DNA of 30,979 nucleotides from a virus. Shown here piece after piece: positions 3,859 to 30,979 of the stretch. A model generated the notes under the pieces. That model ran no database searches and was not told where the DNA came from. It saw only the letters and a program-made list of their open reading frames with translations. Numbering within the stretch: position 1 is the first letter of the stretch; each line of letters opens with the position of its first letter. Location of the stretch: the IMG/VR virus record IMGVR_UViG_3300005470_000263, positions 1-30,979 of that record. The stretch is one strand, 5' to 3'. The translations under genes were made by a program, and so were the position numbers.

Positions 3859-4101
3859 ATGACGGAACAGGCAGATAAATTTCTATCGAAAGAAGAATTG
3901 CTTTTGCGTTGGTGCAGGCAACAGAAGATTTTTTCAAAAGCCGAGGTCATATCGTATGGAGCGAAAAATTACTATTTACGAGCCGAGAGGACTATCAGGG
4001 ATTTTGTTTCTCAAGACATTGTAAGAAGAATCAGCAAAGAGGAATGTGTCCGGAGAAATCTTAAGGGCAACATGGCTTGGTACGAAGCGGTTTCTTTTTA
4101 A
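3859..4101 (+). CDS. Winged-helix-like DNA-binding protein, 80 aa
   Basis: The start at 3859 follows AAAGGAGGG; an open extension upstream to 3742 has no ribosome site and overlaps the membrane gene in another frame. The segment from about residue 24 (FSKAEVISYGAKNYYLRAER) through RTIRDFVSQDIVRRI looks like a helix-turn-helix followed by a short wing. This arrangement is common in small phage regulators and replication accessory proteins. The gene ends 11 bases before the replication initiator gene, so it probably acts in the same early operon. The exact role is unknown. Confidence 0.6.
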   Translation: MTEQADKFLSKEELLLRWCRQQKIFSKAEVISYGAKNYYLRAERTIRDFVSQDIVRRISKEECVRRNLKGNMAWYEAVSF

Positions 4102-4112
4102 AAAGGTTTTTC

Positions 4113-4919
4113 ATGGTGAATATTGATATCAGAGATTTACGTGATGGGAAATTTCTTTGGATTGATAAATCCGCGTTGAATTTGGTGAGCGCGCAAGCAG
4201 GGAATACTGGAGTCGCTGTTTATTCTTGGCTTTGTTATTACGCCAACGCAAAACATCAGAATTGTTTTCCGTCAATCAAGACGCTGGCAGAACACTGCAA
4301 TGTTTGCCGAAGGACTGTGATGAGGACAGTTAAAGATTTGGAGAGGATCGGTATTGTTTCGATTGAACGAAAAAAGGGAAAGCCGAACGTCTACAAATTG
4401 CTCAATGCGCCTGTGGAAAAAAGTAGTGACACTCATGTCACTGGTGACGCTGATGTCACTGGGGTGGTGACACCCATGTCACAACCGGTAGTGACTCCGG
4501 TGTCACCCGAACAAGAATTAATAAAACAAAAAGAAACTAACAATACGGTCGTTTCTTTTTCAAAGCTGTGGATAAGTTCAGCTTTGCCGTATGAGTATCC
4601 AAAACAGAAAGAGATCGAAGATCTGTCTGTCTGGTTCATAAAAATAAAAGCTGACATTGATTTGTACCGATTGATTCTGGATTTTCGTAATGACAAGGGT
4701 TATCCGCCTAAACCAGAGATCGTGATTGCTTTATGCAGACAGTTTAAGCAGGGCAGGATCCGGATCAGAAATGTTTTTGGGTGGTTTAAGAAGGCTTTGT
4801 ACGAACAGATGAGGCGGTATTTGATGGATCAAAGATTAGAAGAACATGAAAGGATAAAAAAAGAACCTGCTCTGATCGGGCATATTCTTTCTCAAATTGG
4901 AAGGGGGAATCAATGTTAA
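4113..4919 (+). CDS. Replication initiator, O-like, helix-turn-helix N-terminus
   Basis: The protein has 268 residues from the ATG at 4113. Residues about 30-100 form a winged helix-turn-helix (FPSIKTLAEHCNVCRRTVMR, then TVKDLERIGIVSIER) of the type found in phage O-like and DnaD-like replication proteins. A hydrophilic linker (about 105-145) is encoded by the four iterons described separately. The C-terminal half is helical and ends in a charged tail, as expected for a helicase-contacting domain. I see no separate helicase-loader gene downstream, so the C-terminal half may recruit the host helicase directly. Its start is 11 bases after the previous stop, with a weak AAAAGG site, which suggests coupling. 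Confidence 0.8.
   Translation: MVNIDIRDLRDGKFLWIDKSALNLVSAQAGNTGVAVYSWLCYYANAKHQNCFPSIKTLAEHCNVCRRTVMRTVKDLERIGIVSIERKKGKPNVYKLLNAPVEKSSDTHVTGDADVTGVVTPMSQPVVTPVSPEQELIKQKETNNTVVSFSKLWISSALPYEYPKQKEIEDLSVWFIKIKADIDLYRLILDFRNDKGYPPKPEIVIALCRQFKQGRIRIRNVFGWFKKALYEQMRRYLMDQRLEEHERIKKEPALIGHILSQIGRGNQC
4426..4560. other. Probable replication origin: four iterons plus AT-rich stretch
   Basis: Four copies of the 16-bp inverted repeat GTGAC-N6-GTCAC lie at 4426-4441, 4444-4459, 4467-4482 and 4491-4506. They are followed by an AT-rich segment (about 4508-4560) with several A runs. Copies one and two are read in one codon phase and copies three and four in another, so the sequence is conserved as DNA and not as peptide. 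The layout matches the lambda origin, which has four iterons and an AT-rich unwinding region inside initiator gene O. The initiator encoded here is the expected binding protein. Confidence 0.8.
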
Positions 4920-15028: not shown

Positions 15029-15727
15029 GTGTTAATGGATCGGGTCAGATCTTCTGCATTTAAGTTAAATGTTCCAGTTTTTAGGGATGTTACATTTAAA
15101 GCATTGAATCAATGTCAGGGTTTTTCCCAGTTACGGCAGGCAAATAGTTCGGTTACTTTTATAAAAAGTGCACAGTTAGAGCCTCAGGACACAACGATTG
15201 CTGTATGGATAAAATCTTTAAGATGGGATGAGCCGACCGCAACGGCTTTAGTTACAAAAAGAGTAGCAACAGACAGCGGATATTTTTTGTTTGTTTTGAC
15301 AACCTCACGGACAATTCATTTCGATTGGGGAGGAACATCTACTCGATGGAATACGGGATACGAACCTCCGTTGAATAAGTGGATTCATATATGCGTGACT
15401 AGGGATAGTGATGTGCGCAAATTATTTATTAATGGATATCAGCAGGCAGAAACAAATATTCCCGGGAATCCTTTATCAGTTCCATGTGATTCAAATCTGT
15501 TTATCGGAAAGAATACAACAGCCGGAGGATATCAGTATAAAGGTGATATATCGAGATTTATGTTTTGGGATAGGGCGTTGACGGCAGATGATGTTCGTCG
15601 GGTTTATGAAGGAGCCGTTATTATGGACGGGTTAAATATTTTTTGTCCTTTTCAATCTAACAGTCTGGATGTGTCCGGTAATAATAATCATGGAGAATCT
15701 CAATCGGTAATATTCAAGAGGGATTAG
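15029..15727 (+). CDS. LamG/concanavalin-like virion protein
   Basis: The 232-residue protein has the signature of a LamG-type beta sandwich: TTIAVWIKSLRW, GYFLFVLTTSRTIHFDWG, KWIHICVTRDSDVRKLFING, and SRFMFWDRALTADDVRRVYE. These are the typical edges of a laminin-G-like domain, which often binds sugar. The GTG at 15029 follows GGAGGG with six bases between them; an ATG two codons later is also possible. A lectin-like protein in the head module might decorate the capsid and hold the phage to a glycan surface. That is inference, as lambda has no equivalent here. Confidence 0.8.
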   Translation: MLMDRVRSSAFKLNVPVFRDVTFKALNQCQGFSQLRQANSSVTFIKSAQLEPQDTTIAVWIKSLRWDEPTATALVTKRVATDSGYFLFVLTTSRTIHFDWGGTSTRWNTGYEPPLNKWIHICVTRDSDVRKLFINGYQQAETNIPGNPLSVPCDSNLFIGKNTTAGGYQYKGDISRFMFWDRALTADDVRRVYEGAVIMDGLNIFCPFQSNSLDVSGNNNHGESQSVIFKRD

Positions 15728-17515: not shown

Positions 17516-18667
17516 ATGTCAATGCTAACACGAAAACGTCAGGTAGCGGCTAAGGTGGAGGCTCAGGAGGGAACAGCTGAAACCTTATCGGCTTCTGATG
17601 CGGGGATTCTGGTTAACTTTTCACCGAAGGCGATGTACGAACCGCAAATGTATCAGCGGGATCCGGTGCGGGCATCACTTACGAAGCTGGGGAAACTGGC
17701 AGGGAAACGATCAGCCGGAATTGATTTTAGTATCGAGTTAAGAGGTTCAGGATCGATCACGCAAGAGCCGGAGTGGTCGAAACTTATTAAGGCGTGCGGT
17801 TTCGCAGTGAACACATTGAAGAAGATTTCAATCGGGGCGATTACATCGGGGCCGTTTGTTCATGGAGAGACGATCACAGGGGATTCATCCGGAGCGACTG
17901 GGCGTGTTGTCATCAAGACGGAAAACGGAACAACGACGCTTTATTACGTTTCGATCTCCGGCACGTTTATTTCTACTGATGAGATTACAGGTTCAACGTC
18001 AGGGGCAAGTGCCAATGCTTCAGATGATCCGGATGATGCGGGCTATGAAGTCAAGACAATCAGTTCGTCTATTCCATCTTTGACCATGGGGTTGTTTGAG
18101 GACGGCATTCGCAAGGTGATTAAGGGGTGCCGGGGGACGGTCAAGTTTATGTTCAAGATCGGCGAACCCGCAATGATTGATTTTAGTTTCAAGGGGGTTG
18201 AGTCAGGCGTTGCTGATGTTGCTTTGTTGTCAGGCGTAACATTCGACAGTACGGTTCCGCCAGTGCTTCTTAACGCTGTTATGTCGGCAGACGGCGTTTC
18301 TTTAAATGTCGGGGAGATGGAGATCGATATTTCAAACACGCTTGCTTCAAAAGACAAGATCGACGATGCCAAAGGGATTTTATCTTACATGATCACAGGG
18401 CGTGATCCTCAGGGTAATTTTAATCCTGAAATGGTTCCGGTTGCCACGCATGATTTCTTTAATAAGTGGTTTAACAATACGCCGATGGTTTTGGATCTTG
18501 CCTATGGAGATACAGACGGCAATAAATTCAGGTTTTACGCTCCGAGCATTGTTTACAACAAGGTCGATGACGGGGATCGTGACGGAATTCAGCTGGCACA
18601 AACGTCATTTGATCTGACTGGATCAATGAATCCCGGAGATGATGAACTTTCACTATTACTTTTATAA
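17516..18667 (+). CDS. Major tail tube protein, gpV-like
   Basis: The 383-residue protein begins with the tail-tube pattern TRKRQVAAKVEAQEGTAETL and has repeated beta strands through the body. A serine/threonine-rich inserted segment (about 105-180, with GPFVHGETITGDSSGATGRV) looks like a repeated beta domain projecting from the tube, in the place where other phages carry Ig-like additions. The end, LAQTSFDLTGSMNPGDDELS, also suits a tube subunit. Lambda gpV has 246 residues, so this one is longer. The ATG follows AAAGGAGG. Confidence 0.85.
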   Translation: MSMLTRKRQVAAKVEAQEGTAETLSASDAGILVNFSPKAMYEPQMYQRDPVRASLTKLGKLAGKRSAGIDFSIELRGSGSITQEPEWSKLIKACGFAVNTLKKISIGAITSGPFVHGETITGDSSGATGRVVIKTENGTTTLYYVSISGTFISTDEITGSTSGASANASDDPDDAGYEVKTISSSIPSLTMGLFEDGIRKVIKGCRGTVKFMFKIGEPAMIDFSFKGVESGVADVALLSGVTFDSTVPPVLLNAVMSADGVSLNVGEMEIDISNTLASKDKIDDAKGILSYMITGRDPQGNFNPEMVPVATHDFFNKWFNNTPMVLDLAYGDTDGNKFRFYAPSIVYNKVDDGDRDGIQLAQTSFDLTGSMNPGDDELSLLLL

Positions 18668-18680
18668 ACGGAGGTGATTT

Positions 18681-19106
18681 ATGTTAACTGGAATTGATGT
18701 TAATTCGACACGCAAATATGTGTCAAAGATGGATCCCGATAAAGAGAATCCGACCGTGTTTCATATCGGGCTTTTGGATCCGGTATTAAGGGCAGAGGTT
18801 GATGATGAGAGCAGTACTTATGAGATGAGTTCAACCAACCCGAACGATAAAGCAAAGGTCAGGCTCAACTGGAACAAGCGTCAGATCATGGCGATCAAGT
18901 TTGGTTTGAAGGGAATTGATAACTTTCTGGATCCGCAGACAGAAAAGCCGATTGAGCTTCGTTTTGACACGATCAATTATGCGGGCAAATCCCGCAATGT
19001 TATTCCTGATCGCATTATTGCGATGTTTCCGAATGAACTCAGGCAAGAACTTGCGGAGGTCATTCTTAACGAATCCAAACTGTCGGAGGACGAGCAAAAA
19101 AACTGA
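18681..19106 (+). CDS. Tail assembly chaperone, gpG-like
   Basis: The 141-residue protein (lambda gpG has 140) begins GIDVNSTRKYVSKMDPDKEN and has the acidic end ILNESKLSEDEQKN. It would bind the tape measure before tube assembly. The gene ends at a -1 frameshift heptamer, A AAA AAC, whose last codon is directly followed by the stop. The frameshift would join it to the next frame as G-T. The ATG follows AACGGAGGTG. It lies between tube and tape measure genes, the fixed place of this chaperone. Confidence 0.85.
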   Translation: MLTGIDVNSTRKYVSKMDPDKENPTVFHIGLLDPVLRAEVDDESSTYEMSSTNPNDKAKVRLNWNKRQIMAIKFGLKGIDNFLDPQTEKPIELRFDTINYAGKSRNVIPDRIIAMFPNELRQELAEVILNESKLSEDEQKN

Positions 19107-19145
19107 TCGTGGCGGTTCATTTGGGCGAACTGACAATGAACTGCC
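19097..19145 (+). promoter_or_regulatory. Programmed -1 frameshift signal (G to G-T)
   Basis: The slippery heptamer A AAA AAC (19097-19103) is in the zero frame with codons AAA AAC and is followed by the TGA stop. Seven bases later GGCGGTTCAT (19111-19120) pairs with ATGAACTGCC (19136-19145) as a 10-bp stem with one G-U and a 15-base loop. A shift by -1 enters the frame of the next gene (CTG ATC GTG) without meeting a stop. The heptamer, spacer and stem have the textbook arrangement. Confidence 0.85.
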
Positions 19146-19432
19146 GTGGATGTTTAAACGGAAAGAAAACGGTATGTGAGTATGAAGTGCCGGGACAGGA
19201 AATCTGGGAATTAAATTCTCAGCAGTATCAGGGATGCCCTTACAAAATCGTCACACGTCAGTCGGCGAATTTTCTAAGGGCATTTCAGTTTTATCGAAGC
19301 GGATATTTACCCAATCAGGGGGCGTGGATTGATCAGTCAGCCAAGATGCTGGATGCCTTTGAAGTGATTGAAAGGGAGATCAAAGAAATTGAACTTGAGA
19401 GGGAAAAAAGATTAAGGAAATTTCAGCGATGA
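19109..19432 (+). CDS. Tail chaperone T part (made as the G-T fusion)
   Basis: The frame opens with GTG at 19109, but this has no ribosome site, and the sequence before it is the frameshift signal. The product is therefore probably made only as a G-T fusion of about 250 residues, reading on from 19103; lambda G-T has 279. The T part carries two cysteine pairs (CRGC and a later C...C), suggesting a small metal site. It ends in a charged helix (IEREIKEIELEREKRLRKFQ). T would bring tube protein to the G-coated tape measure. Its stop overlaps the tape measure start (ATGA). Confidence 0.78.
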   Translation: MAVHLGELTMNCRGCLNGKKTVCEYEVPGQEIWELNSQQYQGCPYKIVTRQSANFLRAFQFYRSGYLPNQGAWIDQSAKMLDAFEVIEREIKEIELEREKRLRKFQR

Positions 19433-21204
19433 ACAATAAAGAGTTATCCATCATTTTGCGTCTGCGTGATGAAGCCTCAAAACGTCTTGAAGGTGTGCGG
19501 GGGAATTTGCAGAGGTTTGCGAATTCATGGAAACGCAATTGGCTTGCGATTACAGCTTCAGTGACGGCCGCTGTCGTGGCGTTACGCAAGGCATGGGATC
19601 TGATGGAACTGGGTGCAAAGGCGGAACAGCAAAAGCAAGCCTTTGAGAATCTTGCCACGTCTGTCGGTATGAGTGCGGATAAGATCATCAGTGATTTAAG
19701 GAAGATGTCCGGCGAAACTTTATCGACGGCACAGATTATGGAAAAAGCATCGCAGGCAATGATCTTGGGGATAGATCCCACGAAGCTTTCAAAAATGATG
19801 GAGATCGCAAGGGCTTCAGCAAGAGCGTTTGGAAAAGACGTTGGTTTTATGTTTGAGAGTATTGCTATCGGTGTCGGACGTCAGTCAAAACTGGTTCTTG
19901 ATAACTTAGGAATTATTGTCAGTGCGGGAGAGGCATACGAAAAGTACGCCCAAACCATTGGCAAGTCTGTAAAGGAATTGACGGAATATGAACGAAAGCA
20001 AGCCTTCTTAAACGCAACGCTCGAGGCTGGTGAGAGGATTCTTCAGCGAATTGATACGTCGACAATGACTAGGCTGGAGAAGATGCAGAAACTCAAAGCC
20101 CAGTGGGAAGATTTTGTCGTGAAGGTTGGGCAAGCCTTGTGGCACGTTCTGGGATTCTTGCAGGCATTTATGAATCAAATTGTTACGGGAATTTTTACTG
20201 TTCTTGAGTTTGCAAGCGGGGCAGTCAAAGGTTTTGTGAAGGGCATCGCAGATGCGTTTAATAATCTGATGCAGTTTGGGGTCGAGTTCTTTCAGGGGTT
20301 AATGACACCATTAATCAAATTTTATGAACTGCTTGCCCGATTGCCGGGAGATTTGGGAGAGACATACGCTCAAGCGGCTCTTGAGGTGCAAAAATTCTCT
20401 GATGGTCTTGAAGACAAGACAATCAAATTCAATGTGGAGGGAATGACTCAGGAGCTTGAGCAAACTCAGAGGGCGTTTGCATTAGCGGCTCAACAGAGCG
20501 CACAGGATGCGATAGCGCAATACGATCTTGTGTTCGCGAAAGTCAGAGAGACAGGAACGCAAACCGCTGAGGTTTTGAAAAATGTTTCCCAGCAAATGGG
20601 TGATGGTGCTGAGCAGGTCGCAGAGAAGTTTGAGGCAATGGAAGAATTCGCCAAACAGTCAGCCCGTAATATGCAGAACGCATTCTCGCAGTTCTTTTTT
20701 AAAGCATTTACCGGTGAGTTGCGAAGCATCAAGGAAGTTTTTGCAGACTTCGGGCGAGCGGTGTTGCAGATGATATCGAACATACTGGCAAAACTTCTTC
20801 TTATCAAGATGTTTACGGCCATGGCAGGACCCAGCGGGAAGATATTCGGTGTGTCGATAGGGAGTTTGTTCCATCAAGGCGGAATGGTTCGCAAAATGCA
20901 CCATGGAGGGTTTATTAAAGCGCATAGTGGTCTTGCTCCGGATGAGGTTCCTATTATTGCTCAGACAGGTGAAGGGGTGTTATCCCGCAGAGGTATGAGT
21001 GCGCTTGGCGGGTCAGATAATTTAAGAGCGCTGAACAATGGTGAGAATGTTTCAAGGGGTGGTGTGACGATTAATGTCAATCAGGTTATTCAAGCCTGGG
21101 ATGCGCAGGATGTGTGGCGTAACCGCAAGATGCTATCGAATGCGATTGCGGATGACATTTACAACAACGGCAAGATCAGGTCGGTTATCAGGAGTTACGC
21201 ATGA
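19429..21204 (+). CDS. Tape measure protein, gpH-like
   Basis: The protein has 591 residues, fewer than lambda gpH (853), so a shorter tail than that of lambda is expected. It is mostly helical, with many heptad-like stretches (RLRDEASKRLEGVRGNLQRF at the start) and a hydrophobic centre (WHVLGFLQAFMNQIVTGIFT) that may enter the host membrane. The end is Gly- and His-rich (LFHQGGMVRKMHHGGFIKAH), followed by a polar tail. It sets tail length and passes into the cell during DNA entry. It starts by ATGA overlap with T and ends by ATGA overlap with the M-like gene. Confidence 0.92.
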   Translation: MNNKELSIILRLRDEASKRLEGVRGNLQRFANSWKRNWLAITASVTAAVVALRKAWDLMELGAKAEQQKQAFENLATSVGMSADKIISDLRKMSGETLSTAQIMEKASQAMILGIDPTKLSKMMEIARASARAFGKDVGFMFESIAIGVGRQSKLVLDNLGIIVSAGEAYEKYAQTIGKSVKELTEYERKQAFLNATLEAGERILQRIDTSTMTRLEKMQKLKAQWEDFVVKVGQALWHVLGFLQAFMNQIVTGIFTVLEFASGAVKGFVKGIADAFNNLMQFGVEFFQGLMTPLIKFYELLARLPGDLGETYAQAALEVQKFSDGLEDKTIKFNVEGMTQELEQTQRAFALAAQQSAQDAIAQYDLVFAKVRETGTQTAEVLKNVSQQMGDGAEQVAEKFEAMEEFAKQSARNMQNAFSQFFFKAFTGELRSIKEVFADFGRAVLQMISNILAKLLLIKMFTAMAGPSGKIFGVSIGSLFHQGGMVRKMHHGGFIKAHSGLAPDEVPIIAQTGEGVLSRRGMSALGGSDNLRALNNGENVSRGGVTINVNQVIQAWDAQDVWRNRKMLSNAIADDIYNNGKIRSVIRSYA

Positions 21205-29419: not shown

Positions 29420-30979
29420 ATGTCTAGAAACTATATTGCAGAACTTGAAAAACGGTTATGGGATGTTGCCGATGAATTAAGAGCAAACTCGGATTTAAAA
29501 GCAGCTGAATATTCCACTCCAGTTTTAGGTCTTATCTTTTTAAAATACGCCGATTATCGTTTTACCAAACAAGAGAAAATTCTTTCTGATAAATCCAGCG
29601 GTCGTCGCAAGATCGGGAAAACCGATTACCAAGCGGTTGGGATTATGTTTTTGCCTGATGAGGCGCGGTTTTCTTATTTGCTCAATCTTCCGGAAGGCGC
29701 GGATATCGGCAAAGCGATCAATGAAGCTATGAAAGCAATTGAACGTGAGAATGAAGATCTCAAAGGTGTTTTGCCTAAAACATTTAATCGCTTCGACAAT
29801 AGTATTTTGGTTGAGCTTTTAAAGGTCATGTCTTCTATTCCGGATGATATTGAAGGCGATGCTTTTGGAAAAATTTATGAATATTTTCTCGGGAAATTCG
29901 CCATGACCGAGGGTCAGCAGGGCGGAGAGTTTTTCACGCCGATGTCAGTGGTTAAATTGATTGTTTCAGTTATTGAGCCGTTTCATGGGAAGATCTTTGA
30001 TCCGGCTTGCGGATCGGGAGGTATGTTTGTTCAGAGCGCGGAATTTGTTCAGGAGCATAAGAAGAAAGCCATTGATGAAATCAGTGTTTACGGTCAGGAA
30101 AAAACGCGGGAGACCGTGAACCTTTGTAAGATGAATCTGGCAGTGCATGGTTTATCCGGTGATGTGCTTCAGGGGAATTCCTATTATGAAGATTTGCATG
30201 ACATGGCAGGTAAGTTTGATTTTGTGATGGCCAACCCTCCGTTTAACGTGAACCGCATTGATAAAGAACGGATCAAGAACGACCGCAAACGATATCCGTT
30301 TGGTATGCCGTCAGTTGACAATGGAAATTATTTGTGGATCCAGATGTTCTACAGCGCGCTGAATGAAAAGGGACGTGCCGGGTTTGTTATGGCGAATTCA
30401 GCCAGCGACGCACGTGCTAGCGAATTGGAGGTTCGTAAGCAACTGATTGGTGAAAAGGTTGTTGATGTGGTTGTTTCTGTGGGGACAAACTTTTTTTATA
30501 CAGTTGCTTTACCAGTGACTCTTTGGTTTTTGGACAAGGCGAAGAAAAAAACTGATCGCAAGGACAAGGTATTGTTTATTGATGCGCGAAAGATTTATAG
30601 GCAGGTTACTAAAGCCCAGCGTGAATTCTTGCCGGAGCAGGTAGAGTTTTTGGCGAATATTGTCCGGCTGTATCGTGGGGAGAAAGTTGAAGAGGTTCAT
30701 GGTAGTAAAACATTGATGAAGGAAAACTTTCCTAATGGGAAGTATCAGGATATTGCTGGGCTATGCAAAGTTTCGACTTTAAAAGAAATTGAAGCGCAAG
30801 GGTTAACTTTAAATCCTGTACGTTATGTTGGAGTTGAAAAAGATATTGGAGATGGATTTGATTTTAAAGAACGATTGGAAGAATTAAATATAGAGTTGGA
30901 TGCGTTAAATATTCAGGCTAAAGGGCTTGAGAGATCAATAGCTGAAAACATTCAATTAGTTTTAGGAGATTGCAAGTGA
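29420..30979 (+). CDS. hsdM: Type I restriction-modification methyltransferase subunit HsdM
   Basis: The complete 519-residue protein ends at the last base of the window. The N-terminal helical domain has [20 protein letters not shown] and [11 protein letters not shown]. The catalytic domain has [14 protein letters not shown], the AdoMet motif [11 protein letters not shown] (from about residue 193), and the N6-adenine catalytic motif ANPPFN (271-276). The C-terminal helix pairs with HsdS. All motifs are intact. It modifies adenines with HsdS and, with HsdR, forms the restriction enzyme. hsdS and hsdR should follow outside the window. The ATG follows AAGGAATC. It may be phage cargo or host DNA, as no right attachment site is visible. 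Confidence 0.96.

Follow-up and report, generated by a model that had tools for sequence, protein, structure and literature searches.

Gene organisation of the tail region

The DNA studied here is IMG/VR virus record IMGVR_UViG_3300005470_000263, positions 1-30,979, and this full stretch of 30,979 nucleotides is referred to as the window. The tail genes are arranged in the order tail terminator, tail tube, G, T and tape measure (Table 1), with the T stop codon and the tape measure ATG (19429) overlapping as ATGA. Two overlapping open reading frames thus lie between the tail tube and tape measure genes, which is the arrangement used to recognise G/GT tail assembly chaperones. Relatives of G with the same length are 77-95% identical to it. 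Neither G nor T matched any Pfam or PHROG family, or a named chaperone family; such a match is not a strict mark of these chaperones, whose sequences diverge widely. Searches of the PDB with the G sequence and, for fold, with the G model (pLDDT 70, moderate confidence) returned only noise. Confidence in the model of T was low (pLDDT 54). The CxxC...C...CP pattern is kept in T, and is possibly metal-binding.

Table 1. Position of the predicted genes and signals of the G-T locus in the window
Feature	Coordinates	Strand	Remarks
Tail tube protein	17516..18667	+	PF18906 Phage_tube_2, 1e-13
G, predicted N-terminal ORF of the tail assembly chaperone, 141 aa	18681..19106	+	Zero frame, ends AAA AAC TGA
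cGGAGG, internal Shine-Dalgarno-like element	19084..19089	+	7 nt upstream of heptamer
Slippery heptamer A AAA AAC	19097..19103	+	Zero-frame phase; in every complete family junction
T, -1 frame extension, 109 aa counted from slip point	19103..19432	+	CxxC...C...CP cysteines
Zero-frame stop TGA adjoining heptamer	19104..19106	+	TGA, TAA or TAG in every close relative
Predicted stimulatory hairpin, arms 19110-19121 / 19135-19146	19110..19146	+	Pairing kept, covariation
Second conserved hairpin in T	19231..19287	+	ATGCCCTT/AAGGGCAT plus inner AAAATCG/CGAATTTT, then T-rich stretch
Tape measure protein	19429..21204	+	phrog_3779, 3.7e-17

Between the head and tail genes, positions 15029-15727 encode a predicted protein whose resemblance to a LamG/concanavalin-like domain was noted by eye. 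An open reading frame at 29420-30979, which runs to the end of the record, resembles by eye a type I restriction-modification methyltransferase (HsdM-like).

Relatives of the G-T locus

Collections of viral sequences and of genomes were searched and yielded 133 matching rows, from which 50 distinct complete G-T junctions were obtained. When 285 Omnitrophota genomes were searched subsequently, 11 of them gave matches, at 12 loci in all; five of these repeated known junctions and six were new and divergent (L201-L206). In the remaining locus, L200, G matched only up to residue 133 and was followed by unrelated sequence, with no T found nearby. Omnitrophota genomes that carry close relatives include the complete one of Candidatus Velamenicoccus archaeovorus. 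One MAG contig labelled Ruminococcaceae and one labelled Nitrospirae have a copy as well. We infer that the host of the phage belongs to the Omnitrophota. On the Velamenicoccus archaeovorus chromosome the G-T pair is present in two divergent copies, L082 and L206, which suggests the presence of two prophages.

A slippery heptamer adjoins the stop codon of G

The 3' end of G reads CAA AAA AAC TGA (19095-19106), which places the heptamer in X_XXY_YYZ phase, and the -1 frame is open from upstream of the slip site through to 19432. The initial annotation, made from the sequence of the window, had described A AAA AAC in the zero frame, a stop directly after it and an open -1 frame leading into T, and was accurate in all three respects. 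AAAAAAC as such is not enriched in the window (18 occurrences found, 18.2 expected). Of 8637 codon positions, 69 (0.8%) have a slippery heptamer in the zero frame and 3 have A_AAA_AAC. Apart from G, no gene in the scanned gene list of the window has a heptamer touching its own stop codon. The heptamer with its abutting stop was present in all 50 distinct complete junctions of the family, and AAAAAAC followed by a stop in all 11 intact junctions from the Omnitrophota genome search, including the divergent L201-L206. The A run is 6 or 7 long, being 6 in about one fifth of the relatives, which have G or C at position 19096. A chance origin of the signal is excluded by this comparative evidence.

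Selection at synonymous sites was apparent in a codon alignment of 45 sequences, in which the codons of GGAGG, of the heptamer and of both stem arms are nearly or wholly frozen. In the heptamer codons no synonymous differences were seen, against 382 expected for AAA and 332 for AAC; the same holds for GTT (0 against 450 expected) and TGC (0 against 195). No comparable dip in synonymous variation was found in the tail terminator, tube and tape measure genes.

A conserved hairpin follows the heptamer

The stem in the window (19111-19121 / 19135-19145) consists of 11 bp with one G-U pair, and is separated from the heptamer by 7 nt (19104-19110); in relatives 19110 and 19146 pair as well, shortening the spacer to 6 nt. 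The 7-base spacer of the initial annotation was therefore correct, and its 10-bp stem is replaced by the 11 bp given here. Taken in isolation the hairpin is moderately unusual (z -2.8; 3 of 200 shuffles) and ranks 29th among 8000 windows of 45 nt, and in longer folds a rival pairing competes with it (probability 0.47-0.64). Among close relatives alone the covariation of the stem did not rise above that of shuffled alignments, and it became demonstrable because the divergent copies were added: 99.4% of cells were then paired, four pairs had two-sided changes, and the covariation score of 0.335 (0.212 in shuffles) exceeded 500 of 500 shuffles. The stem is thus preserved by compensatory changes. 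A search of Rfam gave no match.

An internal Shine-Dalgarno-like element

Upstream of the heptamer, GGAGG (19085-19089) is nearly invariant across 37 junctions. Its Glu codon GAG showed no synonymous differences, against 389 expected, and the ratio for the preceding Ser codon was 0.19. The element is frozen synonymously, yet it stands at a normal distance from no start codon. The frameshift signal probably has three parts, with this Shine-Dalgarno-like GGAGG as the upstream one. Its gap of 7 nt to the heptamer is below the 9-14 nt reported for the internal Shine-Dalgarno sequences that stimulate -1 frameshifting (PMC5009743). The initial annotation included neither this element nor the second hairpin at 19231-19287.

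Probable synthesis of T by -1 frameshifting

Programmed -1 frameshifting very likely joins G and T into a predicted G-T fusion. As a whole, slippage at A_AAA_AAC giving a fusion that serves as tail assembly chaperone is the best explanation of the locus, with a probability of about 0.94. It is supported by the gene order, the zero-frame heptamer, the covarying stem, the frozen synonymous sites and the fact that T has no conserved start; the covariation and the frozen sites thereby strengthen the proposal of a -1 frameshift signal made in the initial annotation. Most ribosomes would translate G and terminate at TGA 19104. A fraction would slip back by one base at A_AAA_AAC, the tRNA-Lys and tRNA-Asn re-pairing from AAA AAC to AAA AAA. 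The hairpin, which lies 6-7 nt further on, would aid the pause, and pairing of GGAGG with 16S rRNA would probably contribute to it. The shifted ribosomes would continue as ...QKN-LIVAVHL..., giving the G-T fusion. By gene order and by analogy with phage lambda, free G and the fusion would together chaperone the tape measure protein during tail assembly.

A separate T protein could instead arise by re-initiation after the stop of G, at GTG 19109, just past that stop, or at ATG 19136, where nearly all close relatives have ATG or GTG. Neither is always a start codon: many relatives have CTG or GCG in place of GTG 19109, and at 19136 L083 has CTG and L201-L206 have a Leu codon. The independent start at 19109 that the initial annotation had named as evidence against a frameshift was looked for, and the codon proved to be neither conserved nor served by a ribosome site. 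No Shine-Dalgarno sequence lies 5-10 nt from 19109 or 19136 (GGAGG is 19 and 46 nt away), in agreement with the absence of a ribosome site for T stated in the initial annotation, whereas the G starts have GGAGG at normal spacing in all relatives listed. A start at 19136 would moreover fall within an arm of the hairpin, and re-initiation leaves unexplained both the invariant heptamer and the conserved T residues ahead of any possible start (L-I-V/L-A-V-H). Re-initiation is thus very improbable. Slippage of RNA polymerase on the run of 7 A's, adding an A and changing the frame in the transcript as is known for dnaX of Thermus (PMC5009743), is less credible still, since a run of only 6 or 7 A's, with 6 in about a fifth of relatives, speaks against it and a covarying downstream RNA hairpin and upstream GGAGG would not be expected.

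In E. coli, A_AAA_AAC is far less prone to shifting than A_AAA_AAG (PMC5009743). Lack of queuosine as the cause of the AAC codon was rejected, the queuosine enzyme TGT being found in two Omnitrophota genomes. Velamenicoccus has two lysine tRNAs (UUU and CUU), which could disfavour AAAAAAG on the reasoning that PMC5009743 applies to Thermus.

Comparison with known systems and distant relatives

As in phage lambda, the predicted -1 shift lies near the end of G, at the joint between the major tail protein and tape measure genes, and leads to a fusion in the downstream frame. The lambda heptamer is G_GGA_AAG, whereas the window has A_AAA_AAC, a stop abutting the heptamer, a cysteine-rich T, and a G and T for which no relation to known families was detected. 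The initial annotation held that the lambda site had changed here; because no homology to known chaperone families was found, this can be maintained as analogy and not as descent. The lambda G/GT frameshift was described by Levin 1993 and by Xu, Hendrix and Duda 2004, as cited in PMC5009743.

The tape measure chaperones of two Caulobacter phages use AAAAAAC (phiCbK) and GGGAAAC (Colossus) (PMC3556154). These two heptamers are the ones found in the present family, at the same gene joint; the likeness is one of site and position, and the passage of that paper on these phages mentions neither a hairpin nor an upstream element. AAAAAAC adjoining a stop is also given for gp12/gp13 of Acinetobacter phage Loki (PMC5313236), a different phage with a different host, in a passage that contains no comparative test. 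E. coli dnaX, a cellular gene that shifts at about 50%, resembles the present locus in its upstream Shine-Dalgarno sequence, A-rich heptamer and downstream stem-loop, and differs in having A_AAA_AAG with the Shine-Dalgarno sequence 10 nt away (PMC5009743), where the window has A_AAA_AAC and 7 nt. The mechanism is already known (PMC5009743), and AAAAAAC at a tail-chaperone joint, also with an abutting stop, is already published; since it was reported for phiCbK and Loki, the frameshift described here is not new in kind. The comparisons made here give strong grounds for extending conserved tail-chaperone frameshifting to phages of the Omnitrophota, a phylum almost without cultured members.

The usual slippery site of the wide family to which G and T belong is A_AAA_AAC. 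It was found in the zero frame at the G/T joint of Rhizobium phage RHph_TM16, Agrobacterium phage JP1, Rhodobacter phage RcZahn, Alteromonas phage P24 and Microcystis phage Mae-JY22, and Rhizobium phage L338C has G_GGA_AAC in the zero frame at this joint. In the four distant phages that were aligned with the window, identity was 25-33% for G and 19-27% for T, and the protein match is weak for some of the distant phages. The gene arrangement of the window recurs in these phages, whose public records carry G and T as separate open reading frames with no joined product. G/T pairs without a Pfam or PHROG family are thereby linked across phages of Rhizobium, Agrobacterium, Rhodobacter, Alteromonas and Microcystis. 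Two points raise testable questions: the steady use in this family of a heptamer, A_AAA_AAC, that is weak in E. coli, and the second of the two hairpins, with its frozen synonymous sites.

A second hairpin within T

The new item at this locus is a second conserved, synonymously frozen hairpin in T, which begins 85 nt past the first and is stronger than it (z -7.6). Its core pairs are intact in 41-43 of 43 close relatives, among which no compensatory changes were found, and synonymous variation in its region is the lowest of the six tail genes. The T-rich stretch that follows is partly dictated by the protein (F-x-F-Y). The hairpin is limited to the clade of this phage, being absent from L088/L199 and from L201-L206, the latter of which keep the frameshift signal.

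An overlapping open reading frame was rejected as the reason for the frozen sites at 19223-19291, most relatives reading ATG CCC TTT TAA with its immediate stop. Kissing of the two hairpin loops was likewise rejected, as there was no co-evolution and matched and mismatched loops scored alike (-6.8 and -6.6 kcal/mol).

The second hairpin may be a long-range stimulator, a weak attenuator ahead of the tape measure gene, or something else. The first of these would make it a distant part of the frameshift signal, in addition to the elements already described. Precedents are the IS elements, whose stem 1 has a loop that base-pairs with a stem-loop lying 44-104 nt downstream, and the distant terminator in T7 gene 10 (PMC5009743); the 85-nt distance and the frozen synonymous sites would suit such a role. 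The loops, however, do not co-evolve, conserved complementarity reaches 4-6 bp at best and shows no clear compensatory change, and the hairpin is missing in relatives that retain the frameshift signal, so that a distant stimulator is unlikely. Somewhat more doubtful still is a role as an attenuator or terminator within the gene, opened by no ribosomes other than those shifted into the T frame. If true, the frameshift rate would set both the ratio of G to G-T and the amount of tape measure mRNA or protein made downstream. A simple terminator scan did not flag the second hairpin, which its loop limit of 8 excludes.

Elsewhere in the window, a tandem 18-bp repeat at 4426-4505, within a predicted gene at 4077-4919, forms a hairpin of -33 kcal/mol that is among the strongest of the window.
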